NCBI GenBank assembly: GCA_017650325.1
Contig: JAGCFC010000212.1
Location: 1-35,613, forward strand
Length of the DNA stretch: 35,613 nucleotides
Reading direction: 5' to 3'
From: Salinivirgaceae bacterium
GTDB lineage: Bacteria; Bacteroidota; Bacteroidia; Bacteroidales; SZUA-534
The notes under the pieces are model-generated. The model saw only the letters and a program-made list of their open reading frames with translations. It did no database searches and was not told the DNA's origin. Below, one piece after another: positions 1-12,203 of the stretch. The stretch's first letter is position 1, and every line of letters begins with the position of its first letter. The translations under genes were made by a program, and so were the position numbers.

Positions 1-140
1 CGCCAGCATATCAATTCAATTTGAACCCCGACGGGGTGAAATAACACAGCCGTGGGTGTAAACCCACGGAAACGGTGCAATCCGCGGCGCAAACCCGGAA
101 CGGGTGACACAAAAATTGGGATGTGTCACACCTTCGGCGT
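1..140 (+). repeat. Long direct repeat, copy 1 (contains two-hairpin unit U1)
   Basis: This stretch recurs almost unchanged at about 5812-5955, and its part from about position 22 onward recurs at about 6419-6537. It starts with an AT-rich lead (CAGCATATCAATTCAATTTG), then the two-hairpin unit at 26-69, then a CCCGGAACGGG hairpin followed by TGACAC, and it ends facing an inverted GTGTCA plus CCTTCGGCG. Short open frames in it carry stop codons and match nothing recognisable, so it is read as non-coding. It lies just downstream of the first giant secreted-protein gene. Confidence 0.85.
26..69 (+). repeat. Two-hairpin palindromic unit U1
   Basis: Hairpin 1 is CCCC-GAC-GGGG (26-36). A 13-nt linker TGAAATAACACAG follows. 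Hairpin 2 (50-69) has arms CCGTGGG/CCCACGG around a TGTAAA loop. The same order of elements is seen in U2 to U8, with different but still complementary stems. Confidence 0.85.
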
Positions 141-193
141 TTTTTATTGGGCGCCCCATATGGTGAAAGTGTTTAGAAAATATTATAATCCAA

Positions 194-241: not shown

Positions 242-270
242 AAAAAAGGCCGCCCCATGGGGCGACCTTT
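242..270 (-). terminator. Intrinsic terminator of the first giant gene
   Basis: Read on the minus strand, arms GGTCGCCCC/GGGGCGGCC form a GC-rich stem (248-267) followed by TTTTTT, about 30 nt past the stop codon at 297-299. A near-identical terminator follows the paralogue at 6739-6768. Confidence 0.85.
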
Positions 271-296
271 TTATTATCATCTAAGCTGTGTGGCCG

Positions 297-3200
297 TTAC
301 GGCAGCACAACCTTTGTTGTCTCCTGCTCGAAGTTCACCATGTAAACTCCGGCTGTAGTCATCGGGATAACGGTGCGGGTGCTGGTTGCGTTTGCCTTGG
401 CTACCACGCGGCCGTTGATGTCGATAACGCTGATCTCGCAGCCGTCGGCTTCGGCAACCTCAACCACAATGGCTCCGTCCTGTGCGTAAACCAGTGCGCC
501 AGCTGACTCCTCGGCAATGGCGTTGCCGCCGTTTCCTGTTGCAGGAATAACGCCCTCGGTACGGCCCAGCTCAACTCCGCAGACGGTGCAGACTACAACT
601 GTGTCGCACTTGCCGTCGGTGGTCTCTGTTGCGGCCACCTTAACCTCTACTGTAGGCTCGCCCGGCTTGTGGCCTGCGGCTGCAACTACATCGGTCTTCT
701 CCTCGTGCTTGCAGAGGCTGCAGGTCATGAGTGTGTAGCCCTCCTCGGTGCAGGTCGGTGCAACAACAGCTGTTGTGTAGCTGTGGATTGCGGGTATCTC
801 CTGCTCTGCGCTGAGCTTCTTGGTGTTGCCTGCAAGGTCTTTCACTGTGGCGCTGACGCCGACTGTGATATCAACGCACGGATCAAGAGTTACCGAAGCG
901 GTGAAGGTGACATTGTCTTTAGTCTTAAGCGAGTTGAGTGTGGCTCCTGTGAGCTTGATACCGCTCTGGTCGAAGCCTGTAACCTGCTCGCTGAACTTGA
1001 TTGTAAGATCAACATTCATGCCGTCCTGGCTCAAATCGAAGCCTGCAATCTGCGGTGCCTTGTTGTCGATTGTTACAGGGAAGTTGCGCGACAATGTGCC
1101 AACTGCCGGCAATGCTATCGTATCAACAACATTAGAACCGTCGAGAACAACAATGTGATCGTTCATATAAACGCTGTCCTCAGTATAATCGAACAGGGCA
1201 ACATTGTCGGCACTCTGCACGGCATAGAGGAAGGTGAGCGTGTAGAGGTCGTCGCGGCTGTCGTCGAGAGCGGTGCTGTCGAGAACAGCGAAGCTGCCGG
1301 TGTTCATCTTCAACTGCGGCATTGCCTCCAAATCTTCGTTCTCATCTACAACCACGGTGCCGTCGAAGGTTACATTGATGGCGATGGTATCGTTGGCAAC
1401 AGCGTAGCGGCTATTTGGTGTGCTCACTGCAATCACCTGAGTGTTGTTGGCAACACCTACAACCGGAATGGTGTCCGGTTTCCGTGAGCCGTGCTCGATA
1501 TAAAGTGTATCAAGGAATTTGCCCGGCTCATCGCTATAGAATTTGAAGCGGAATGTGATTGAATCGTCGGGATAAGCGACACTGTTTGTTACATAGGTAT
1601 ATGTGAATTTGTCACCCTCTTTAAACCAGATATCAGAAAATCCGACATTTGTTGTACCATAGTTGCGCAGCGTGATTGTCGAGTAGGCTGCGTTGCCAGT
1701 GTGAACAGGTGCAAACGCAATTTCATCTTTGTTGAAATCGTACTTAAACTGCTCTTCGATGTCAATAGCCACTTCGAACTCTATATACGGATTCTCGGCA
1801 TCGTTTGTGTTATAAGAGAAGTATTCATATTCTGTGCTTCCAGTATAAGTCCAGCCCTTAATTGGAATTTCAAACTTAATGTCGGTTGAAGCACCGGCTG
1901 CCACAACAATGGTATCGGTGTTGTTCATCAACTTAAGTGCGGTTGATGTGCCGGCGTTTGTGACAGTGGCGGTGGCGGTGGCTATTTTCTTGTCGTAATC
2001 GATTGTCGCAACAAGTTCATCTTCGAATACAGCTGTTGGCGACACCACTGCGGTTCCCTTCAGTGTTATCTCAAAGGTGTCTTTCTTTGTTTCAGACCCT
2101 ACTGTGTAGTAGTAAGTGGCCACCTTGAGGGTGTTGGTGAATGGGCCGGCCTCGGTTGGCACAAATCCAACTTCACTCCAATCGTTAGTAAGCGGATTCT
2201 CGTCATCGACAACCCAGAAGTTTTCGAAGCTGAAACTACCGCAGCCTTCATTCTCGTATGTTACATATTGCCATGCTTCGGTGCCTACTGAAACCTCGCC
2301 AAAGTCGATAACCTCGGGGAGCACAAGTTTGGGTGCGTTTATAACTCTAACCTTGCCATTCATTGTAATGTCTTCATTGTACGGGTCATTGGTGGTGAAA
2401 TGGTAGTCGAAACTTTTTTCACCAATGCCATCGGGATAGACGGTCATCTCTATTTCGAGAGTATCGCCGGCGTTGGCGGTTTGTGTCTCAGTGGCAGCGA
2501 ATTCAAAACTTTGACCATTATTTGTTTCAGCCAGATTTATGGTTTGCAAAACTTTAGTGCCATTGCTAATGATTAATTTTCCGTTAGCACCATAAGGCCA
2601 AACTGTTATATGGCCTTCGGTTGTTGGACTATAAATGCTGAAGTTACCATAGAATGGAGCACCATAAACATTGTTGCCTTCGGCATCGTAAATATTAAAA
2701 CCACCATTACCTATATTGGTTCCTTCCTGATACTCAAATTTGATTGGCTCGGTAATAACAAGTGGGGCAGTGCCTGAGTTGGTAACGCGGCCTTTGAGTG
2801 TTACTCTGCCCTCGTCGCAACCAACAGTGTCAGGTTTGAATCCTAAATTATTATCAGCATCATAGTTGTAAGAGTATTCGGCTATCGGCAAACCAGTACC
2901 AGTACCTGTAAGCTGTACGGTAGTGGTTGCATTGTCGGCTGTGGTGATGGTGAGGGTGGCGGTGCGGGTGCCAATCTCGCTTGGCATAAAGAAGACAGGG
3001 ATTTCAACTGTCTGGCGAGGGGCAATTGTACCATCAGAAAGTGTTTTTGTGAACTCTCCTGGATTCTCGGGGTCAGGGAATATAAAATCACCTTCGCCAA
3101 TGGCTAACGAGCTGATGCTTAGCGGGCCACAGCCGGTGTTTGCAATGGTAAGCACCGATGAACCATATAAGTATGAATTCTCGGGGTCGATTGCCTGACT

Positions 3201-5279
3201 GCCAAAGTCAATGTTCTCGGCAACAGTCATTTCCGGTTCACCTGGGGTGAGAGCCACATAGATGTAATCGACAGCCCCGGCCACATTTACAGAATTCACG
3301 GGGATAGCGGTGGGCTCACTAAAGGAATGAGAATTTAACATGAAAGTCAGTTGGTTTATGGTTGCACCATTGGCAACAGTAAGGGGTTCAATGCCGCTCA
3401 TTACAAATGATGCAGTATTATGAGTGCCACCATCGATGGTCGCCTTATCAAGCAAGGTTTCTCCATTAAATATCACAGTAACATATCCCCCGTTCCAGCC
3501 GTCACCATAGGAGTCATACATGTCGAGAGTATATTTCCCGAAAGGCAGATCAATTTCCGCGCTGTAGTTAGTATAACTTGAATATGTGCCACCTAGAACA
3601 CTATAAACAGATTTTCCTTCAGAATTGAGAATATTATAATACATCTCACCTCCATAATTGCCAGAGTATATTTGTAATATAATTTTTGGCTCAGTACCAA
3701 TTGTCATTATAGCTCCACTGTTGTTTGTAAATGTGAAAGAAGCTGTGGCGGTATTGGCTTCGCAATCCACCGTGGCGGTAACAACATCGTCAGGAATAGT
3801 GTAGTTGAGTTCCGAAACATTGGCAACAAAAGGAATTTTTATTGTTCCGGCATTTTCGGTAACAACGGTCAGAGTGTCTTTATACTCACCGGTGTTTTCG
3901 GTATAGAAACCAATAATCGCGCCAACAGAATCGCCGGCAGCCAAGTACCCCTCAAAATAATTAGGAACAAAGTTGACAATGCCGTAATTATCAGTGCCAA
4001 GCGAAGGAATCTCGTCGAACCAAATGGGCTGGCAACCGGTGTTTTTAATCCATGCTGTCTGCCTTTTGGCTTCGTATCCGGCAAAGGCCGAGAACTGTAA
4101 GCCGCTGGTTGCCTCATATTCCGGTTCAACATCAACATTGATTTCCAAGGTTGTAAATGTGTTGCCGTTATTCATAATTTTAACGGTGCGAGAGCCAAGC
4201 TCTGCTGTTGCCGTAATGTTGATGGTTACCTGCTCGCCTGCTCCAAGGTCGAAATAAGTCTGCGACATTTCAATGCCTTTGGGTGTTGCGCTGATTTTTT
4301 CTGTTTTATACAAGATGTCATTGTCCCAAGACGTAATATATGGATTGCCATCGGCATCGAAGCCGGCAACCACACCATAATAATAGAACGCACCTTTTAT
4401 TGACATTTTACCATTTTCGAAGCTGAAGATAGAAGTGTTATAATAATCGTCTGATGTCCAGAACAGTCCTGTTACAGGGTTGTAGTTAACAGAATAATAA
4501 AAATAGTAGTTAACGGTACCATAGTCGGCTTTCAGGTTGCCGTTGGTGTCGAAAGATTTTACACGCGATGATGTGTAACTACCTCTTTCGAATGTAAGCA
4601 GTTCGGTTCCGTTCCACACAACTAATACCGAGTAGTCTAACTCAATTTTTTTGCCAGTGGGGTCCAAATTTGCATCGAGGGCATAGATGTTGCCATCGTA
4701 GTCAGCCGCCCAGAAGGTTTTGCCGTCGTAGGCAAGGCTGCGATAGTCGTTTCCATTCGGTGTATATTTGCGAATTGTGGCACCCGTGGCCAGGTCTGTT
4801 CTTACAACAGCCTCGTAATCATAATTGTAAGTGTAGGCGTAGCCGTTTACCTCGAAATAGTTAAGAATATCGCGGTTTTCCCAGCTAAGGCTGTATTCAC
4901 CATAAACAGAATCCCCCAGCTCAATGTCGGGATATAAGGTGTTGTTGTTTGCGTCTCGGAATTGGAAAATGCCAGTAATCCGCTCGTCGCTGTTGTTTTT
5001 AATAACCAGCGGGCGGCTCTTAGTCTCACCGCAGTTGGTAATGGTAAACTGCATGGTGCCGTTTGGGGTAAGGGTCAACCTGTCATCACCGCCATCTTTG
5101 GCAGCGTCGCTTTTTGCTTTTCCAAAGAACGTGTATTCGCCCGGGGCTTCTTTCCGTTCTTTCTTCTCTCTGAGCTCTTTCTTGTGCTCATCTTTGAGTT
5201 TGTCTTTAGGCCCTTGCGCCTGCGCGGATGTACCGCCAAAGGCTATCAAAGCCGCAAGAATCAGTAAAGATTTCTTCAT
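297..5279 (-). CDS. Giant secreted T9SS-sorted multidomain surface protein (paralogue 1)
   Basis: 1660 aa. The start is supported by a clear signal peptide (MKKSLLILAALIAFGG, cleavage near AQAQG, about residue 22). It is followed by a highly charged Lys/Glu linker (about 24-45). Residues about 130-335 contain repeated FWxA and YDG-like strands typical of a beta-propeller. The middle holds several Ig-like domains of the ASPM/SPD-2/Hydin (choice-of-anchor D) type, marked by DFG, NTGCG and LTGTG motifs near residues 700-830 and 1030-1150. A DSYGDGWNGG module lies near 590. Residues about 1500-1575 carry two CxxC knuckles (TCSLCKH, CTVCG). The last 75 or so residues match a type A T9SS sorting domain (VIDINGRVV, GVYMVNF, KVVLP end). 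Role inferred: surface-attached or released protein, possibly adhesive; no enzymatic motif seen. It is close to the protein encoded at 6795-12203. Confidence 0.85.
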   Translation of the reverse strand: MKKSLLILAALIAFGGTSAQAQGPKDKLKDEHKKELREKKERKEAPGEYTFFGKAKSDAAKDGGDDRLTLTPNGTMQFTITNCGETKSRPLVIKNNSDERITGIFQFRDANNNTLYPDIELGDSVYGEYSLSWENRDILNYFEVNGYAYTYNYDYEAVVRTDLATGATIRKYTPNGNDYRSLAYDGKTFWAADYDGNIYALDANLDPTGKKIELDYSVLVVWNGTELLTFERGSYTSSRVKSFDTNGNLKADYGTVNYYFYYSVNYNPVTGLFWTSDDYYNTSIFSFENGKMSIKGAFYYYGVVAGFDADGNPYITSWDNDILYKTEKISATPKGIEMSQTYFDLGAGEQVTINITATAELGSRTVKIMNNGNTFTTLEINVDVEPEYEATSGLQFSAFAGYEAKRQTAWIKNTGCQPIWFDEIPSLGTDNYGIVNFVPNYFEGYLAAGDSVGAIIGFYTENTGEYKDTLTVVTENAGTIKIPFVANVSELNYTIPDDVVTATVDCEANTATASFTFTNNSGAIMTIGTEPKIILQIYSGNYGGEMYYNILNSEGKSVYSVLGGTYSSYTNYSAEIDLPFGKYTLDMYDSYGDGWNGGYVTVIFNGETLLDKATIDGGTHNTASFVMSGIEPLTVANGATINQLTFMLNSHSFSEPTAIPVNSVNVAGAVDYIYVALTPGEPEMTVAENIDFGSQAIDPENSYLYGSSVLTIANTGCGPLSISSLAIGEGDFIFPDPENPGEFTKTLSDGTIAPRQTVEIPVFFMPSEIGTRTATLTITTADNATTTVQLTGTGTGLPIAEYSYNYDADNNLGFKPDTVGCDEGRVTLKGRVTNSGTAPLVITEPIKFEYQEGTNIGNGGFNIYDAEGNNVYGAPFYGNFSIYSPTTEGHITVWPYGANGKLIISNGTKVLQTINLAETNNGQSFEFAATETQTANAGDTLEIEMTVYPDGIGEKSFDYHFTTNDPYNEDITMNGKVRVINAPKLVLPEVIDFGEVSVGTEAWQYVTYENEGCGSFSFENFWVVDDENPLTNDWSEVGFVPTEAGPFTNTLKVATYYYTVGSETKKDTFEITLKGTAVVSPTAVFEDELVATIDYDKKIATATATVTNAGTSTALKLMNNTDTIVVAAGASTDIKFEIPIKGWTYTGSTEYEYFSYNTNDAENPYIEFEVAIDIEEQFKYDFNKDEIAFAPVHTGNAAYSTITLRNYGTTNVGFSDIWFKEGDKFTYTYVTNSVAYPDDSITFRFKFYSDEPGKFLDTLYIEHGSRKPDTIPVVGVANNTQVIAVSTPNSRYAVANDTIAINVTFDGTVVVDENEDLEAMPQLKMNTGSFAVLDSTALDDSRDDLYTLTFLYAVQSADNVALFDYTEDSVYMNDHIVVLDGSNVVDTIALPAVGTLSRNFPVTIDNKAPQIAGFDLSQDGMNVDLTIKFSEQVTGFDQSGIKLTGATLNSLKTKDNVTFTASVTLDPCVDITVGVSATVKDLAGNTKKLSAEQEIPAIHSYTTAVVAPTCTEEGYTLMTCSLCKHEEKTDVVAAAGHKPGEPTVEVKVAATETTDGKCDTVVVCTVCGVELGRTEGVIPATGNGGNAIAEESAGALVYAQDGAIVVEVAEADGCEISVIDINGRVVAKANATSTRTVIPMTTAGVYMVNFEQETTKVVLP

Positions 5280-5394: not shown

Positions 5395-5716
5395 TATTAG
5401 GTATTAGGTATTGGGTGTTGGGGATAAGGCATAAGTGATTAGTGATTAGTGATTAGTGATTAATGATTAGCGATAAGGCACATGGCATAAGGCAGAAGGC
5501 ACATGGCATAAGGCATAAGTGGTAAATGATTAATGATAAATGATAAGGCATAAGGCACATGGCATAAGTGATAAGGGATAAGTGATACGTGATAAGTGAT
5601 TAATGATTAATGATAAGGCATAAGTGGTAAGTGATTAATGATTAATGATAAGGCAGAAGGCACATGGCATAAGGCATAAGTGGTAAGTGATAAGTGGCAA
5701 GGTAAAAGGGATAAGG
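5395..5716 (+). repeat. Phase-locked heptanucleotide tandem array (46 units)
   Basis: From TATTAGG at 5395 to GATAAGG at 5710-5716 the sequence divides into 46 consecutive 7-mers with no phase shift. Common units are GATAAGG, CATAAGG, CATAAGT, GATTAAT, GATAAGT, GATTAGT, CACATGG and GGTAAGT. Higher-order blocks recur, for example GATAAGG-CAGAAGG or CACATGG followed by CATAAGG. TAA or TTA occurs in most units, and 7 is not a multiple of 3, so the plus strand is closed in all frames. It lies upstream of paralogue 1, beyond its promoter. Confidence 0.9.
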
Positions 5717-5811
5717 GTATGGATGATTAAGGGTAAATTATTACAATTCAACTTTTTATAAATTTTATTTCTGATTTTGTTCAAATTTCTCGTGTCAGCG
5801 ATAACATTTTT

Positions 5812-5955
5812 AGCGCCAGCATATCAATTCAATTTGAACCCCGACGGGGTGAAATAACACAGCCGTGGGTGTAAACCCACGGAAACAGTGCAATCCGCGG
5901 CGCAAACCCGGAACGGATGACACAAAAATTGGAATATGTCACGCCTTCGGCGTTT
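5812..5955 (+). repeat. Long direct repeat, copy 2
   Basis: Matches 1-140 with only a few substitutions, including the AT-rich lead, the CCCCGACGGGG hairpin and the CCCACGG hairpin, and it again ends in ACGCCTTCGGCG. It is followed by different hairpin units rather than by a giant gene. Confidence 0.85.
5839..5882 (+). repeat. Two-hairpin unit U2
   Basis: Hairpin 1 CCCC-GAC-GGGG (5839-5849), linker TGAAATAACACAG, hairpin 2 arms CCGTGGG/CCCACGG with TGTAAA loop (5863-5882). Identical to U1. Confidence 0.85.
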
Positions 5956-5971
5956 TTGGTGTAAAGAATAA

Positions 5972-6025
5972 TTGCCTGAAAGACAATATTTTCATAACCG
6001 CGGATAAGCGAAGCGCAATCCGTGG
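5972..6025 (+). repeat. Two-hairpin unit U3
   Basis: Hairpin 1 TTGCCT-GAA-AGACAA (5972-5986) has one mismatch. The linker TATTTTCATAA follows. Hairpin 2 has arms CCGCGGAT/ATCCGTGG around loop AAGCGAAGCGCA (5998-6025). Its stems share no sequence with U1, but the layout and the GAA triloop are the same. Confidence 0.75.
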
Positions 6026-6048
6026 TATTGACACACTCAAGAATACAG

Positions 6049-6089
6049 TCTGGAAGACTGCACTTTGCAAGGTTCGCTCTTCCAGAGCG
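6049..6089. repeat. Nested inverted repeat in the palindrome cluster
   Basis: TCTGGAAGA (6049-6057) is complementary to TCTTCCAGA (6078-6086). The second arm also takes part in a local palindrome CGCTCT-TCC-AGAGCG (6075-6089). It belongs to the same hairpin-rich cluster but does not show the full two-hairpin layout. Confidence 0.6.
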
Positions 6090-6110
6090 TTGCTCTATAT
6101 GGTATGCGGG

Positions 6111-6164
6111 CCGGCGGCTGCGCTCCGCTTGCGGCCGGTTATGCGGATTAAGTCCTTCGGACTT
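6111..6164 (-). repeat. Two-hairpin unit U4 (inverted)
   Basis: On the minus strand: hairpin 1 AAGTCC-GAA-GGACTT (6150-6164), a short linker containing CATAA, and hairpin 2 with imperfect arms starting CCGGCCGC and ending GCCGCCGG around AAGCGGAGCGCA (6111-6138). The loop matches that of U3. Confidence 0.75.
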
Positions 6165-6192
6165 TTTGGAGACCTTGCGGGCGGAAAAATGC

Positions 6193-6255
6193 GGGCTGAA
6201 AGCCCCAATCATTTATAACCCAACGCAAAGTGAGCGCAGCGAACGACACGTTGGG
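6193..6255 (+). repeat. Two-hairpin unit U5
   Basis: Hairpin 1 GGGCT-GAA-AGCCC (6193-6205), linker CAATCATTTATAA, hairpin 2 arms CCCAACG/CGTTGGG (6219-6225 and 6249-6255). The longer loop contains AGTGAGCGCAGCG, again the AGCGCA loop type. Confidence 0.8.
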
Positions 6256-6320
6256 TAACACGCCGTCCATCACCATGGCACGCTGTAAGCGCAACTCATG
6301 CTATCGCTTTTTTATGTATT

Positions 6321-6352
6321 GCCCCTGTAGGGCGCCATCGTTGCTCCGCAAC
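6321..6352 (-). repeat. Degenerate or partial hairpin units
   Basis: GCCCCTGTAGGGC (6321-6333) is a hairpin-1-like palindrome with a changed loop, next to GTTGC-TCC-GCAAC (6340-6352). A matching hairpin 2 on the minus-strand side is only weakly visible (arms GCATG/CGTGC near 6280-6310). Read as decayed copies. Confidence 0.5.
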
Positions 6353-6356
6353 TTTA

Positions 6357-6410
6357 CCCAAGGCGACGCTGCGCTTGCCTTGGGCTATGAATAAATTGCC
6401 CCTTCAGGGC
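6357..6410 (-). repeat. Two-hairpin unit U6 (inverted)
   Basis: On the minus strand: hairpin 1 GCCCT-GAA-GGGGC (6398-6410), linker AATTTATTCATAG, hairpin 2 arms CCCAAGGC/GCCTTGGG around AAGCGCAGCGTC (6357-6384). U6 and U7 lie back to back, 12 nt apart. Confidence 0.85.
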
Positions 6411-6418
6411 GAAATTAT

Positions 6419-6537
6419 TGAACCCCGACGGGGTGAAATAACACAGCCGTGGGTGTAAACCCACGGAAACAGTGCAATCCGCAGCGCGAACCCGGAACGG
6501 GTGACACAAAATTGGGATGTGTCACACCTTCGGCGTT
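6419..6537 (+). repeat. Long direct repeat, copy 3, downstream flank of paralogue 2
   Basis: Matches about 22-140 with a few substitutions. Together with 6605-6794 it reproduces the whole downstream flank of paralogue 1 up to its terminator and stop codon, except for a 67-bp extra segment at 6538-6604. Confidence 0.85.
6423..6466 (+). repeat. Two-hairpin unit U7
   Basis: Hairpin 1 CCCC-GAC-GGGG (6423-6433), linker TGAAATAACACAG, hairpin 2 arms CCGTGGG/CCCACGG with TGTAAA loop (6447-6466). Same sequence as U1 and U2. Confidence 0.85.
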
Positions 6538-6604
6538 CCATTCGGGTTTCATCAAATTACCGGGGTTTACACCCCGGCCTGTTATATGTCACGCCTTCGG
6601 CGTT
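6538..6604 (-). mobile_element. Extra 67-bp segment carrying two-hairpin unit U8
   Basis: Absent from the otherwise matching flank of paralogue 1, where CACCTTCGGCGTT runs directly into TTTTATTGGGCGCCC. Here the run is interrupted by a full minus-strand unit: hairpin 1 CGCC-GAA-GGCG (6592-6602), linker TGACATATAACAGG, hairpin 2 CCGGGG-TGTAAA-CCCCGG (6560-6577). The segment is bounded by near-identical 15-nt repeats, CACACCTTCGGCGTT (6523-6537) and CACGCCTTCGGCGTT (6590-6604). It could be a mobile-unit insertion, or loss of a unit from the other copy by recombination between the repeats. Confidence 0.65.
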
Positions 6605-6738: not shown

Positions 6739-6768
6739 AAAAAAGGTCGCCCCATGGGGGCGACCTTT
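6739..6768 (-). terminator. Intrinsic terminator of paralogue 2
   Basis: On the minus strand, arms GGTCGCCCC/GGGGCGACC close around a tiny loop (6745-6765) and are followed by TTTTTT. It is equivalent to 242-270, and the duplicated flank therefore includes the terminator. Confidence 0.85.
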
Positions 6769-6794
6769 CTCGTATCATCTAAGCTGTGTGGCCG

Positions 6795-9700
6795 TTACGG
6801 CAGCACAACCTTTGTTGTCTCCTGCTCGAAGTTCACCATGTAAACTCCGGCTGTAGTCATCGGGATTACGGTGCGGGTGCTGGTTGCGTTTGCCTTGGCT
6901 ACCACGCGGCCGTTGATATCGATAACGCTGATTTCGCAACCATCAGCTTCGGCAACCTCAACCACAATGGCTCCGTCCTGTGCGTAAACCAGTGCGCCAG
7001 CTGACTCCTCGGCAATGGCGTTGCCGCCGTTTCCTGTTGCCGGAATAACGCCCTCGGTGCGGCTCAACTCAGTTCCGCAGACGGTGCAGACTACAACTGT
7101 GTCGCACTTGCCGTCGGTGGTCTCTGTTGCGGCTACCTTAACCTCGATTGTAGGCTCGCCCGGCTTGTGGCCTGCGGCTGCAACCACATCGGTCTTCTCC
7201 TCGTGCTTGCAGAGGCTGCAGGTCATGAGTGTGTAGCCCTCCTCGGTGCAGGTCGGTGCAACAGCTGTTGTTGTGTAGCTGTGGATTGCGGGTATCGTCT
7301 GCTCTGCGGTGAGCTTCTTGGTGTTACCTGCAAGGTCTTTCACTGTGGCGTTGATGCCTACTGTGATATCAACGCACGGCTCAAGAGTTACCGAAGCGGT
7401 GAAGGTGATGTTGTCCTTCGTCTTAAGCGAATTGAGTGTGGCTCCTGTGAGCTTGATACCGCTCTGGTCGAAGCCTGTAACCTGCTCGCTGAACTTGATT
7501 GTAAGATCAACATTCATGCCGTCCTGGCTCAAATCGAAGCCTGCAATCTGCGGTGCCCTGTTGTCGATTGTTACAGGGAAACTGCGTGTCAATGTGCCAA
7601 CTGCCGGCAGTTTCACTTCGTCTAACTCAAAATCCGCAATGTCAACCACAATATGGCCGTTCAAATAAATTGAGTCTTCCTTGTAATCGAATAGAGCCAC
7701 GTTGTCGGCAGCCACTACCGGATAATGGAATGTGAATGTGTAAAGGTCGTCGCGGTTGTTTCTGAAGGCAATGCTGTCGAGTTCTGCAAAGCTGTTGGTG
7801 TTCATCAGCAGTTTAGGCATCGAAGCCAAATCCTCGTCTTCAACAGCAATTACAGGTGCATCGAACGACACGTTGATATCGATAGTGTCGCCGGCAACAG
7901 CGTAGCGACCGTTAGGTGTGCTCACTGCAATAACCTGAGTGTTATTGGCAACAGCTACGATTGGAATAGTGTCGATTACATACTCATCTTCAATAGGATT
8001 GTAGATTTCAAAATACAATGTGTCGCGGAATGTGCCAGCCTCATTGCTATGGAAGTTGAGCGAAACTTTGAGCGAATCGCCAACGGCCACATTATTATTA
8101 TTATTGTCGAAATGATAATCAAATTTCGAACCATATTTTATAGTACAACCTTCGATTCCCAATTCTACAGTACCAAGGTTGCGCAATGCTACCGAAGAGT
8201 AAGCCGGAACACCCGTGTGAACCGGTGTAAACTCAACCTCAGCTTTGTTGTTCTCGTAACCGAAATACTCCTCGATGATAACCTCTACAGGAATCATAAC
8301 CTGCGGGGCATTAACATCGTTGGTCGCAAATGCGCGGACAAAAATGTGACTGCCCACTGCAAGACCTTTTACAGGAATGTCGAACACGATATCGGCGGTG
8401 CCATTGGCGGTTGCGGTTGCTGGGGCAACTGTAACATCGGTGTTGCGCTCGGCTACGCTGAAATATGCATAATAACCGCTATTACTAGTTGTATTTCTTG
8501 TCTTGCCAAGCAGCTCAATGCCGTCGGAGGCTACTATCGAAACAGAGCCGCCGTTCCAATAGCCACTAGAGTAACTATTGTACATATACAGACGATAATC
8601 GCCGGCTGGCAGCGATATTGTTTCTGTCTTTTGTTCGTTCGATTGGGTAAAATATCTGGTCGATTTATAAATTAAATCGTACCATCCTTCATCTTCAGAG
8701 AATCGTTGCACTGACCACGAAGAATATCCAGGATAAGAACCTGAGCCGCTGTTCAGGATAATGGTGGCCATTTTTGTATCGACGAGCTTCAGAGCGGTGG
8801 TTGTGCTGCTGTTGCCTACAGTTACTGTGGCTGTTACCATTGTGGCACCCTCTTCAGCGGTTACAGAGGTCATCAGTTCAGGCAATACAATCGATGGCGA
8901 AGAAACGCCAACACCCTTCAAGGTTACATTGAAGGTGTCTTTCACCTGTTTTGTACCATCGTAATAGTATTGGATTATCACGCTAAGTTCATCCTCGAAT
9001 GTGCCGGCTGTGGTTGGTGCGAAGTACAAAAATTCTTCACAGCCGAACGGGCTGTTGGTGTTTGGTTCTCCATTATCGAGCAGAACACCCTTGTAAATAA
9101 CATCATAATTACCGCAGCCAGTGTCTTCCCAATCGAGTTCTGCCATAGCACCCTGCCCAACTGTTGCCTCGCCAAAGTCAATTACTTCAGGGAACACAAG
9201 ATTCGGCTTTTGGGTAACTACAAATTTAGCTGGCATTTCAACATAATCTGCTTCAACATCGTTGCTTGCCAACGGATAATTGATTGTCGTTGAACCCGAG
9301 TTTAACCCATTGAAGAAACTCGGGTTCACGGTCACTTCAACATCGAGAGTGTCGCCCGGCTCAACAGTGTGTTTTGCAAGATCGGCGTCGGTGATTGTGA
9401 AGTTGTAGTCGGGTTCGCAATTGATGTCGGCGTCAGCCACGTTGACAGTGAGCAGAGTCTTGCTGCCACTCTTAACAATGATTTTGCCATCGCAAGCCGC
9501 GTAGTTATAAACCATAAGTTTATAATCGCCCACGCCTAAAATCTCATATATATCATAGTCGCCGTCCTTATAGCTCGCCCAACCTAAATAGCCTTCGCCT
9601 TCGGTATTGGCATCGGCATCAAAAATGTTAAAATAGCCATTGTTGACAGTTCCTGCCTGATAAGTTACGGTAATAGGCTCGGTTATAATAAGGTCGGCCT

Positions 9701-12203
9701 CACCATCGTTGGCAATGCGGCCTTTGAGTGTGGCACTGGTCTGGCTGCAGCCAAAGGTGTCAACAACAAAGCCTAAACCTTCGCCTTCGTAAACAAACAC
9801 CGGATAATCGGGTTCAACAAGCTCATCAACTCCTGTGCCCGTGAGCTGGATTGTTGCCGGTGTTCCTTCGGCTGGAGTGATTGTGATAGTGCCTGTACGG
9901 GCGCCTGTTTCGCTTGGGGTAAAGATAACCCACAACTTAAGTGTGTCTTTCGCCTCGACCTCGATTTCAGAAATGGACTTGACAAAGTTGTCGTTGCCAT
10001 ATAAGAATATGAAATCACTGTCATCGTCGATTGACACAGAGCTAAGGCTGAGCGTACCGCAACCACCGCTGGCGGCAATTGCAAACAATTGCGATGTCGA
10101 ATGGTCAACTACAACTTCACCACAGTCGATGTCGTCGCCAACAACTAATTCGCCCTGTCCTGCGGGCGTTTCAACACTGAAGCCATCGAAAAAGTCATTT
10201 ATTCCTTCGAAACTTACAAAGAATTCGGTTGTGCCACCAAGTTCGAATGCGCTGAGCGGCAAGGTCAATTGGTTAGCAGTTTGTCCGGCGGCAATAGTGG
10301 CGACAGGTAGCCCAACATTGGGCACACTGAAATTTGCATTGGCGTCACTGCCACTACTAAATGTTGCTTGATCCAGCACAACTATGCCGTTGATGGTTAT
10401 GGTAACATAACCGGTATTCCAGCCATCGCCATAGCTGTCATGCATTTTCAGTGTAAGATTGCCGACAGGCAGTGTTGTTTTTTCTTTGTGGAATTTACTA
10501 CTTTGGTAGGAGGTATTATTTGAATAAATGACGTTGTTTTCGGCATCGACTATTGTCCAAGACATTTCTCCACCATAATATCCACCGTAAATTTCGAATT
10601 CGGCAACTTGGGCATTCACAACCGGGTTAATATGCATTGCTACGGTTGTATTATTGGCAATAGTGTTGCTGAATGTGGCGGTATTAGCACCGCAATTGAC
10701 TGTTGCGGCAACAACATCGTCCGAAACACTATATGTAAGCTCAGCAACAGTGGCCGAGAGCGAAATCTCAATCGGCTCAGTGTTCTCTGTTGTAATTATC
10801 AGTTTGTCGGTATAGTTGCCTACATCGTCGGAATAGAAACCGATAACAGCGCCAATAGAGTCACCAGCAAGTAATTCGCCTTCAAAATTTTGTGGTGTAA
10901 TCAGGTTGCCCATGCTGAAATAATCGCCGCCATCGAGTGCTGGCATTTCATCAAACACAATTGGTGCGCAACCGGTGTTTTTAATCCATACAGTTTGTGG
11001 TTGGACGTTGTATCCGGCAAAGGCCGAGAACTGTGCATCGGTAGTCACAAATTCTGGCTCGATGTTGTAAGCGAACTCAATCGGACGCACGAAATACTGC
11101 ATCGGATCATATACATTTTCAAGACTCATGCAAGTCAATATTTCCTCTTGCGAGCCATGCTCAACTGAGGCTGTAACGTTTACTGTAACAGTCTCGCCCG
11201 GCTTCAGGCTGATGGCCGACTGCGACAGGCTGATGCCTTTGGGGTATGTGCTGAATTTTGTAGCCTTGCGCAAAATACCGCTGTTGCTGTAATCCATCAT
11301 GAAAGGAAGTCCGTCGGTGTCGAATCCAACTACTGCACAACCGTAATAAAGAACAGCTTCGAGGGTTGCCTTGCCATCGGCCAAGCTGAAGGCAAAACAC
11401 CCTTCCGTGGCCGCCCAAAACAAGCCGGTGTTTGGGTCGTATGTAAGAGCCCCACCACCAATGAAGAAGGTTCCGTAATCGGCAACAAGGTTGCCATCGG
11501 TGTCGAAAGCCTTGATGCGGGCAGGCCTCTCATAAGATTGTTCAAGGGTAATCAGGTTTGTGCCGTCGAAAGCCACACATGCATTATATCCCACGTTGAT
11601 TTGCCTGCCGGTGGGGTTCAGGTTGGCGTCGAGAGCAATAAGGTAGTTGCCGCTTGCGGTCCAGAACAAGTTGCCGTCGTATGCAAGGCCCATATAACCA
11701 TTGTCGCACCATTTTGTGATTTGGCTGCCTGTGGCAAGATTGGTTTTAATCAAATAAGGGTCGTCACCACTTGCCGCATAGCCGAAACCGTTAACTTCGA
11801 AGTAGTTAATAATGTAGCGGTTGTTCCAATCGTTATATTCTTCGAAAATGGTGTCGCCCAACTCAACATCAGAATTGCTTTGGAACATCAAAAATGCGTC
11901 GATGGTCTCGTCGGTGGGGTTTTTGATAACCAACGGGCGCGATTTAACATCATCGCATTTGTCGAAAGTGAACTGCAGCGGCATTGCCGGCGTAACGCTG
12001 AGAATGTTGTCGTCCGAAAGCAACGGTCTCGGGTCGTCCTTAGCCGCATTTTCTTTAACCAGGAATGGATTTTTGGGCAAATTGGCCTCCCACTCCTTCT
12101 CCTTCTTTAGCTCTTTTTTGAGCTTGTCTTTAGGCCCTTGCGCCTGCGCGGATATTCCGCCAAAGGCTATAAAAGCCGCAAGAATCAGTAAAGATCTCTT
12201 CAT
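6795..12203 (-). CDS. Giant secreted T9SS-sorted multidomain surface protein (paralogue 2)
   Basis: 1802 aa, paralogue of the protein at 297-5279. It has the same signal peptide (MKRSLLILAAFIAFGG, AQAQG) and Lys-rich linker, a propeller-like region (about 130-350), Ig-like domains with NTGCA/TGCG/GGCG motifs, and a DSYGDGWNTG module near 590. It also has an extra module near 1140-1260 (YWNGG) that paralogue 1 lacks. The last 290 or so residues, including the CxxC module (TCSLCKH, CTVCG) and the T9SS sorting domain ending KVVLP, are nearly identical to paralogue 1, whereas the middle has diverged. Start chosen at the signal-peptide Met. Cell-surface or released cargo of T9SS is inferred from the C-terminal domain; the ligand is unknown. 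Confidence 0.85.
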   Translation of the reverse strand: MKRSLLILAAFIAFGGISAQAQGPKDKLKKELKKEKEWEANLPKNPFLVKENAAKDDPRPLLSDDNILSVTPAMPLQFTFDKCDDVKSRPLVIKNPTDETIDAFLMFQSNSDVELGDTIFEEYNDWNNRYIINYFEVNGFGYAASGDDPYLIKTNLATGSQITKWCDNGYMGLAYDGNLFWTASGNYLIALDANLNPTGRQINVGYNACVAFDGTNLITLEQSYERPARIKAFDTDGNLVADYGTFFIGGGALTYDPNTGLFWAATEGCFAFSLADGKATLEAVLYYGCAVVGFDTDGLPFMMDYSNSGILRKATKFSTYPKGISLSQSAISLKPGETVTVNVTASVEHGSQEEILTCMSLENVYDPMQYFVRPIEFAYNIEPEFVTTDAQFSAFAGYNVQPQTVWIKNTGCAPIVFDEMPALDGGDYFSMGNLITPQNFEGELLAGDSIGAVIGFYSDDVGNYTDKLIITTENTEPIEISLSATVAELTYSVSDDVVAATVNCGANTATFSNTIANNTTVAMHINPVVNAQVAEFEIYGGYYGGEMSWTIVDAENNVIYSNNTSYQSSKFHKEKTTLPVGNLTLKMHDSYGDGWNTGYVTITINGIVVLDQATFSSGSDANANFSVPNVGLPVATIAAGQTANQLTLPLSAFELGGTTEFFVSFEGINDFFDGFSVETPAGQGELVVGDDIDCGEVVVDHSTSQLFAIAASGGCGTLSLSSVSIDDDSDFIFLYGNDNFVKSISEIEVEAKDTLKLWVIFTPSETGARTGTITITPAEGTPATIQLTGTGVDELVEPDYPVFVYEGEGLGFVVDTFGCSQTSATLKGRIANDGEADLIITEPITVTYQAGTVNNGYFNIFDADANTEGEGYLGWASYKDGDYDIYEILGVGDYKLMVYNYAACDGKIIVKSGSKTLLTVNVADADINCEPDYNFTITDADLAKHTVEPGDTLDVEVTVNPSFFNGLNSGSTTINYPLASNDVEADYVEMPAKFVVTQKPNLVFPEVIDFGEATVGQGAMAELDWEDTGCGNYDVIYKGVLLDNGEPNTNSPFGCEEFLYFAPTTAGTFEDELSVIIQYYYDGTKQVKDTFNVTLKGVGVSSPSIVLPELMTSVTAEEGATMVTATVTVGNSSTTTALKLVDTKMATIILNSGSGSYPGYSSWSVQRFSEDEGWYDLIYKSTRYFTQSNEQKTETISLPAGDYRLYMYNSYSSGYWNGGSVSIVASDGIELLGKTRNTTSNSGYYAYFSVAERNTDVTVAPATATANGTADIVFDIPVKGLAVGSHIFVRAFATNDVNAPQVMIPVEVIIEEYFGYENNKAEVEFTPVHTGVPAYSSVALRNLGTVELGIEGCTIKYGSKFDYHFDNNNNNVAVGDSLKVSLNFHSNEAGTFRDTLYFEIYNPIEDEYVIDTIPIVAVANNTQVIAVSTPNGRYAVAGDTIDINVSFDAPVIAVEDEDLASMPKLLMNTNSFAELDSIAFRNNRDDLYTFTFHYPVVAADNVALFDYKEDSIYLNGHIVVDIADFELDEVKLPAVGTLTRSFPVTIDNRAPQIAGFDLSQDGMNVDLTIKFSEQVTGFDQSGIKLTGATLNSLKTKDNITFTASVTLEPCVDITVGINATVKDLAGNTKKLTAEQTIPAIHSYTTTAVAPTCTEEGYTLMTCSLCKHEEKTDVVAAAGHKPGEPTIEVKVAATETTDGKCDTVVVCTVCGTELSRTEGVIPATGNGGNAIAEESAGALVYAQDGAIVVEVAEADGCEISVIDINGRVVAKANATSTRTVIPMTTAGVYMVNFEQETTKVVLP

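Follow-up and report, generated by a model that had tools for sequence, protein, structure and literature searches.

Acido-Lenti-1 (RF01687) is a two-hairpin family that Rfam holds under type Gene; sRNA, with a gathering score of 37 bits. It reportedly lies near group II introns. In the parts of Weinberg et al. 2010 (PMC2864571) that treat it, Acido-Lenti-1 is a probable RNA without a known role, with Acidobacteria and Lentisphaerae given in the source table. PMC10059132 lists copies in a Vibrio as non-coding RNA (ncRNA), and a 2026 paper (PMC13298647) proposes units as possible regulators of nearby protease genes in Tannerella. A literature search by title and abstract start, with subscription papers mostly outside it, found no paper joining Acido-Lenti-1 or RF01687 to a transposase. 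Here we analyze a 35,613-nt stretch of Salinivirgaceae DNA (the window, meaning the whole stretch) with a cluster of such units at 5837-6604, and find that their relatives lie beside Y1 transposase genes. On the Rfam strand, short-loop units consist of hairpin A (8 bp), a linker starting CTA or CTG, hairpin B (5 bp, with a triloop) and a T. The window units have the same two hairpins and linker as RF01687, and four lie above its gathering score; the known family had been taken for an unnamed type of its own in the original prediction made from this DNA. What sets the present picture apart from the Rfam description is the occurrence of RF01687 in 37/149 genomes of the window's order, the tie to a DNA transposase, and a long-loop class that stays below threshold.

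The sections of Quentin et al. 2018 (PMC6006769) on Y1 subclass 1.2 define it by the motif Y---Q--HH, describe it as mostly confined to Cyanobacteria and Bacteroidetes, and report it to be generally without the typical terminal structures of IS200 or the insertion sequence (IS) properties of subclass 1.1. The enzymes described here share the motif and the occurrence in Bacteroidetes, but hairpin units lie within 1 kb of 64/80 members and the record titles span more phyla. Repetitive extragenic palindromic (REP) sequences, bacterial interspersed mosaic elements (BIMEs) and REPINs, with their class 2 REP-associated tyrosine transposases (RAYTs), are likewise hairpin repeats that are mostly intergenic, form inverted pairs or clusters and flank a Y1 gene. 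They differ from our units, which have two hairpins each, lack the GT[AG]G foot in 143/148 cases and have a partner outside class 2. IS200/IS605 elements (IS608, ISDra2) share the Y1 enzyme fold and hairpin ends, whereas the ends here are inverted copies of a two-hairpin unit. The TnpA-Y1 class 3 repeats of Acidobacteria, as the class is introduced in PMC6006769, are also atypical hairpins beside a Y1 gene at high copy number, but the CnGA foot is found in 0/148 of our units (from 80 loci, few of them Acidobacteriota) and 29/30 Acidobacteriota Y1 genes carry the subclass 1.2 signature. CGTC-tagged palindromic repeats are similar in being palindromic and occurring in Bacteroidetes; the account of them in PMC3733652 has them unassociated with transposase genes, and the words Rfam and Acido-Lenti are absent from that account. 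We set these repeats apart by description only, the CGTC tag not having been searched in the units.

We consider it quite probable that the units are DNA and not primarily RNA, serving as the cognate end-hairpins of a subclass 1.2 Y1 HuH transposase. Placed like end-pieces around its gene in many bacteria, Acido-Lenti-1 units are most likely DNA that the subclass 1.2 enzyme handles and spreads. We also lean, with less assurance, towards the broader view that Acido-Lenti-1 is not an RNA family but represents the DNA ends of a third hairpin-mobilising Y1 system beside IS200/IS605 and REP/RAYT, with inverted two-hairpin ends, a range covering Bacteroidota, Acidobacteriota, Planctomycetota and others, and 1 to at least 148 copies per genome.

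Units beside subclass 1.2 Y1 genes

The window's genome (3.22 Mb, 244 contigs, 92% complete) yielded one PF01797 match. This protein (P0001, 151 residues) carries the HuH motif as HIH and the sequence YIRNQEKHH, and its candidate catalytic tyrosine is Y115. The HuH motif and the tyrosine are conserved in Y1 relatives, and the PF01797 domain was matched in 26/26 family proteins. The Y---Q--HH signature is present in 79/80 Y1 genes of loci picked by similarity, in 26/29 open reading frames (ORFs) from 30 loci of the window's order, and in 29/30 genes from Acidobacteriota; the alternative Y---NP occurs in 0/80, 1/29 and 0/30, respectively. By this signature, the partner enzyme is assigned to Y1 subclass 1.2. 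An AlphaFold2 model of the enzyme (mean predicted local distance difference test score, 87.6) finds its best structural matches (2xma and 2vhg) in ISDra2 TnpA (E = 3.3e-7) and IS608 TnpA (E = 4.9e-7), with the REP-associated transposase 4er8 a later match (E = 2.8e-4), and a sequence search reaches IS608 TnpA at E = 1.5e-11. P0001 falls below the 55-bit cut-off of the NCBIfam IS200 equivalog (41.7 bits; best E among the 26 members, 1.3e-20) and scores 19.3 bits against a cut-off of 80 for REP_Tyr_transpos. Members also occur in records titled Thermoanaerobaculia, Planctomycetota, Ignavibacteria, Chlorobiota and Methylococcaceae, several of which are metagenome bins with possible misbinning.

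Four RF01687 units above the cut-off, one inverted and three in tandem, lie directly 3′ of the Y1 gene in the window's genome (C191:1503-1838). In a scan of 20 of the 30 fetched order loci against all of Rfam, RF01687 was the sole family at E<=0.01 and was present in 11/20. We built a covariance model (R1) from 52 units; it matched at E<=0.05 in 22/30 order loci, three of them weakly (17.9-20.0 bits; L041, L042, L043), a result that is not independent, as some of these loci supplied R1 training units. R1 units were found in 21/21 loci of the QSL type, the weak L041-L043 included. On a protein tree of 26 sequences (alignment A1, which like the tree omits L033, L043 and L053 for internal stop codons, and L054), units are present at 18/26 loci, and all 8 unit-free proteins fall in one clade of 9 whose ninth member, L052, has units. 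Unit presence requires two changes on this tree, and 0/500 shuffles were as low. Among the MANTYTQ-type Y1 loci of the sister clade, used as a control, 8/9 had no R1 units. Several loci of that clade (L044, L045, L047, L055, L057-L059) show by eye a short triloop hairpin and, after it, a linker that ends in GGTAG; these may form a second family of repeats.

For an independent sample, we took the best 80 of 583 loci confirmed by similarity to A2, the 16/26 A1 rows of QSL type (RF01687 match in 11, none in four, and L056 unscanned in the all-Rfam scan). None of these 80 titled loci (flanks of up to 10 kb per side) was used in R1 training; none has a 300-bp stretch at 85% or an identical unit in common with the training loci, and two pairs among the 80 share 471 and 542 bp. 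R1 gave 206 matches at E<=0.05, and their density falls steeply with distance from the gene: 3.400 units per kb at 0-250 bp, 0.885 at 250-500 bp, 0.188 at 0.5-1 kb, 0.070 at 1-2 kb, 0.015 at 2-4 kb, 0.022 at 4-7 kb and 0.003 at 7-10 kb (1 match in 315,822 bp). A unit lies within 1 kb of the gene in 64/80 loci (47/80 at >=30 bits), and units stand on both sides within 500 bp in 41/80. The nearest unit within 500 bp is mostly on the minus strand upstream (44/52) and on the plus strand downstream (41/51), so that most units face outward with hairpin B outermost. Counting short stem-loops without any model gave 1.89 and 2.08 per 200 bp beside the gene versus 0.12-0.21 at control positions. In 41 loci, similarity was higher between the left and right unit of a locus than between units taken from different loci, both in hairpin A (0.680 vs 0.493) and in hairpin B (0.687 vs 0.578; 0/301 shuffles for each). 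The linkage recurs in Acidobacteriota, one phylum where the Rfam family was described: of the 30 top-ranking Acidobacteriota Y1 loci, each from a different genome, 19 have an R1 match at E<=0.05, which in three cases covers hairpin B only.

Structure, copies and proposed movement of the units

The stems covary, as had been predicted. Among the 52 units, from the window and other genomes, both sides change in 12/13 pairs, 86.5% of cells are paired versus 67.0% in shuffles (0/500 as high), and the covariation score of 0.473 drops to <=0.238 when the partner is shifted by 1-3 columns. Among 148 units (135 distinct) from the 80 loci, both sides change in 13/13 pairs and 89.0% of cells are paired versus 66.3%; this alignment (A4) was fitted to the structure, with a bias in its favor. 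In the seven long-loop units by themselves, both sides change in 10/13 pairs. The best conserved unpaired positions are a T two bases past hairpin A (99%) and a T as first base of the triloop (98%). Decayed coding sequence, the origin that the original prediction named as its own refutation, is ruled out, since every stem pair changes on both sides in A4 and 22/30 unit loci lie outside even mechanical ORFs. The units are supported as a REP/BIME-like repeat under structural selection.

Both loop classes proposed for the second hairpin exist; in the long-loop class, to which the other four window units belong, it is hairpin A whose loop is extended. We built a second model (R2) from seven long-loop units, four of the window, one elsewhere in its genome and two of locus L099. 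At L099, long-loop units occupy both sides of the Y1 gene in the same positions as the short-loop class does elsewhere (one locus); the translated Y1 match between them (L099:10001-10450) contains one stop codon. At L126, a short form or looser match of the long-loop class stands left of the gene, and R2 also matches ordinary units beside Y1 genes. These findings rule out two separate families, and the two loop classes are one family. In the window's genome, RF01687 has 14 matches above the cut-off including the window's four, and short-loop units number 19 at E<=1e-4, with the long-loop class in addition. A strict long-loop pattern found nothing in this genome; R2 did better: of its 21 matches at E<=0.1, 12 reach E<=2.6e-6 (five of these being training units), though some weaker matches overlap short-loop units.

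Genomes with units tend to encode the enzyme. Of the 149 genomes of the order, 37 contain RF01687 and 78 encode a P0001 relative; the protein is present in 31/37 unit-bearing genomes versus 47/112 others (p = 6e-6), and scoring units by R1 gives 30/35 versus 48/114 (p = 3e-6). In 247 genomes of the phylum of L105, taken as Acidobacteriota from its record title, RF01687 occurs in 37 and an A2 protein in 109 (28/37 versus 81/210, p = 2.7e-5). These tests ignore kinship between genomes, and overlaps between genome lists were counted by hand. The suggested Y1/RAYT-type partner is borne out as co-occurrence with a Y1 gene; the part naming a RAYT is not, and most protein-bearing genomes show no RF01687 match at E<=1e-4. 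Matching genomes of the order hold 1 to 10 protein relatives. The suggested count of copies by covariance model placed R1 matches at E<=0.01 in 19/20 titled genomes, with 1 to at least 148 copies per genome and no more than 150 candidates scored in each. The upper figure comes from a metagenome-assembled genome of Planctomycetaceae (G157; L161, L214-L233), where many units are identical and many lie at contig ends; these copies look like a recent burst.

Scattered between genes are inverted pairs of about 180-250 bp that lack the gene but share their ends with the gene-bearing locus, along with tandem or alternating clusters of such pairs; positions 5837-6604 of the window are one cluster of this kind. 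By eye, gene-less pairs of about 206 bp in genome G105 have the ends and inner hairpins of the gene-bearing locus there. In G189, similarity among five pair copies extends over about 250-330 bp and then stops. In 14/19 copies of Flavipsychrobacter (G160), the sequence directly past the T of hairpin B is unrelated flank; the other five (L234-L237, L247) share further flank, and at L236 the unit is enclosed by a larger element bounded by terminal inverted repeats (CATAAGTGTTCGAAAC), as though another miniature element were carrying it. Outside hairpin B, pairs in Bacteroides (G189, G149; L269-L273, L276) extend to imperfect terminal repeats (AAATGATAATTTTGC / GCAAAATTCCCATTT). B. xylanisolvens XB1A has a block of about 1.1 kb that spans the left array, the gene and the right unit. 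Six congeners were examined out of 50 genomes searched; in five of them the corresponding slot lacks the block, with flanks 4, 0, 52, 43 and 159 bp apart. For the gene-less pair L272 of G189, no empty site was found in eight relatives; G180 matched the left flank, none matched both, and the right flank is itself repeated elsewhere in G189.

These arrangements suggest how the system might work, with cutting and mobility modeled on what IS200/IS605 and RAYT enzymes do. The mother locus reads hairpin B-linker-hairpin A, inner B, transposase gene, inner B, hairpin A-linker-hairpin B, so that its two ends are inverted copies of each other. Where a strand is exposed, for example at a replication fork, the hairpins would fold and be bound by the enzyme, and its tyrosine (Y115 in P0001) would cut next to the outer hairpin. 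Rejoining could then move or amplify the pair. The gene-bearing element may either move as a unit, in the manner of an IS, or only serve the repeats, in the manner of a REPtron.

Weighing the alternatives

Several observations count against the units being the cognate ends of this enzyme. Units were already known beside most members of the A2 query clade when it was chosen, so that the 80-locus test covers that clade and not all Y1 proteins. In 16/80 loci, R1 has no match within 1 kb of the gene; of these, L099 (a training locus), L102, L110 and L135 match R2 at E<=0.05 and L107, L120 and L154 match it weakly, while others are recognized by eye only. RF01687 at E<=1e-4 is missing from 47/78 protein-bearing genomes of the order and from 81/109 in Acidobacteriota, and the protein is missing from 6/37 and 9/37 unit-bearing genomes, respectively. 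An A2-like Y1 ORF lies within 1.5 kb in 5/29 order and 5/30 Acidobacteriota unit loci (control stretches, 0/34); such low numbers would be expected if most copies are dispersed away from the gene. The outer end varies, since 20/20 copies examined in G157 continue TTGAT, unlike those of G160. The empty slots related to B. xylanisolvens have no exact junction, the right one being inexact, and are compatible with gain or loss; in the sixth congener (G180), the flanks are about 1.5 kb apart. Close linkage by itself is also compatible with units that act as regulators of the gene.

A possible, if unlikely, alternative is an ordinary active IS of the IS200/IS605 type whose gene-less derivatives are plain miniature elements without a REP-like, host-adopted role. 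IS608 and ISDra2 TnpA are indeed the nearest solved relatives in sequence and fold, both ends are present, and one slot differs between congeners. Against this, genes are fewer than units (one gene versus 19 short-loop units plus the long-loop class in the window's genome, and 1 to 10 relatives per matching genome elsewhere), single units form tandem arrays beside the gene, and the ends are inverted two-hairpin units. Plasmids also carry the gene rarely: 2/72,556 records have a relative of the one member searched (E<=1e-8). Subclass 1.2 is, in the account of PMC6006769, without IS properties.

We consider it improbable that the Rfam label is right and that the units are a structured ncRNA gene or cis element, near the transposase by chance or regulating it. 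The label itself, the 'probably' with which the grading in PMC2864571 calls the family RNA, UUCG-like loops in some units and a terminator-like T run after others (6559-6604) favor it; the placement of units on both sides of the gene in opposite orientations does not, nor do at least 148 copies in one genome, many identical in score and sequence. The genes flanking 30 unit loci away from Y1 (9 from the window's genome and 21 from the order, a subset of the fetched loci) are also mixed in arrangement, with 10 loci between convergent, 9 between co-directional and 3 between divergent genes, and 8 overlapping a mechanical ORF. On the Rfam strand, G-T pairs make up 22/1,526 standard pairs (1.4%) compared with 16/269 (5.9%) in 12 tRNAs from the 80 loci and the window, where aragorn brackets standard pairs only and the G-U share alone is compared. 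Mirror A-C cells, which would be wobble pairs if read on the opposite strand, number 87 against 22 G-U, an excess that alignment slips probably inflate. The low G-U share argues mildly against an RNA on the Rfam strand and says nothing against a structure on the opposite one. Stronger evidence for DNA comes from the symmetric bracketing of the gene. Units may still have a secondary role in transcripts.

Slightly less probable again is that the units mainly terminate transcription or stabilize mRNA 3′ ends. T runs follow hairpin B in some copies, and 10/30 unit loci lie between convergent genes versus 3/30 between divergent ones; in G160, however, 14/19 copies pass into unrelated flank right past hairpin B, so that the unit does not include a T run there, separate terminator-like palindromes with T runs lie nearby in the window (244-272 and 6740-6768), and the bracketing of one gene family would go unexplained.

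Least probable of all is the classical system of class 2 RAYTs and GTAG-tagged REPs, which the REPtron-like arrangement and the mostly intergenic, multicopy inverted pairs recall, since Y---NP (0/80), the GT[AG]G foot (5/148 units), the NCBIfam score and the single PF01797 match in the window's genome all speak against it. The comparison with REP/BIME elements moved by RAYTs in the original prediction thus holds for a multicopy, often inverted repeat tied to a Y1 gene and fails for the partner, a canonical RAYT as sole partner being contradicted by protein and foot motifs.

The cluster in the window and its significance

Eight two-hairpin units lie in the window, one of which has a decayed hairpin, together with two half-units. 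The eight had been placed correctly to within about 2 bases, and 7/8 fold both hairpins as single-stranded DNA (z = -2.0 to -4.8); the half-units at about 121-145 and 5929-5954 were absent from the original list. Four units reach the RF01687 gathering score (43.1-48.1 bits), and the long-loop units at 5972-6410 had no match above the cut-off in the window scan. Strands below follow the Rfam sense (hairpin A, linker, hairpin B), and all four long-loop units contributed to R2. With the half-unit 5929-5954 counted, orientations alternate across 5837-6604, giving three complete inverted pairs and one truncated pair.

The truncated pair consists of a short-loop unit at 5837-5882 (minus; RF01687, 48.1 bits) and, as its right partner, the hairpin B half-unit at 5929-5954 (plus; R1, 20.7 bits; partial RF01687 match at 5934-5953 below the cut-off, 14.9 bits). 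Pair 1 (5973-6163), a REPIN-like miniature element by its unit orientations, with short inner hairpins read in the sequence, joins a long-loop unit at 5973-6025 (minus; R2, 54.4 bits) to one at 6111-6163 (plus; R2, 56.5 bits). In the former, hairpin B (the first hairpin from about 5972) is decayed, and the second hairpin alone folds as single-stranded DNA. Pair 2 (6193-6410), likewise recognized by orientation, joins long-loop units at 6193-6255 (minus; R2, 78.3 bits, with a pattern match and GTGAGCGCAGCGAACG in its loop) and 6357-6410 (plus; R2, 53.4 bits; R1, 26.7 bits at 6357-6411). Pair 3 (6421-6604) is a complete 184-bp miniature element of B-linker-A, spacer, two inner B hairpins, spacer and A-linker-B, whose short-loop units lie at 6421-6466 (minus; RF01687, 48.1 bits) and 6559-6604 (plus; RF01687, 43.1 bits; R1, 64.6 bits, R1 being partly built from this unit). 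By eye, the same layout is found in genome G105 at L174, which bears the gene, and in the gene-less copies L169-L173.

A second truncated pair occupies 24-145, where a short-loop unit at 24-69 (minus; RF01687, 48.1 bits; R1, 60.8 bits, with this unit in its training set) faces a hairpin B half-unit at 121-145 (plus), read in the sequence without a model match of its own. Positions 1-144 are a 97% copy of 5814-5957. Two very large minus-strand ORFs, 297-5279 (1660 aa) and 6795-12203 (1802 aa), have these repeat clusters beyond their 3′ ends and are near-identical at and beyond those ends (242-541 vs 6740-7039, 95%). A degenerate tandem repeat of words of about 7 nt (ATAAGTG, ATTAATG, ATAAGGC) adjoins the hairpin cluster at 5400-5720.

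If the units are the DNA ends of a subclass 1.2 system, two orphans would be joined. An Rfam "RNA" without a function since 2010 would probably be transposase DNA, and a subclass reported to be generally without IS200-like ends would gain a likely substrate. Annotations of the units as ncRNA genes may then mislead, as in the case of the regulatory idea that PMC13298647 puts forward on that basis.

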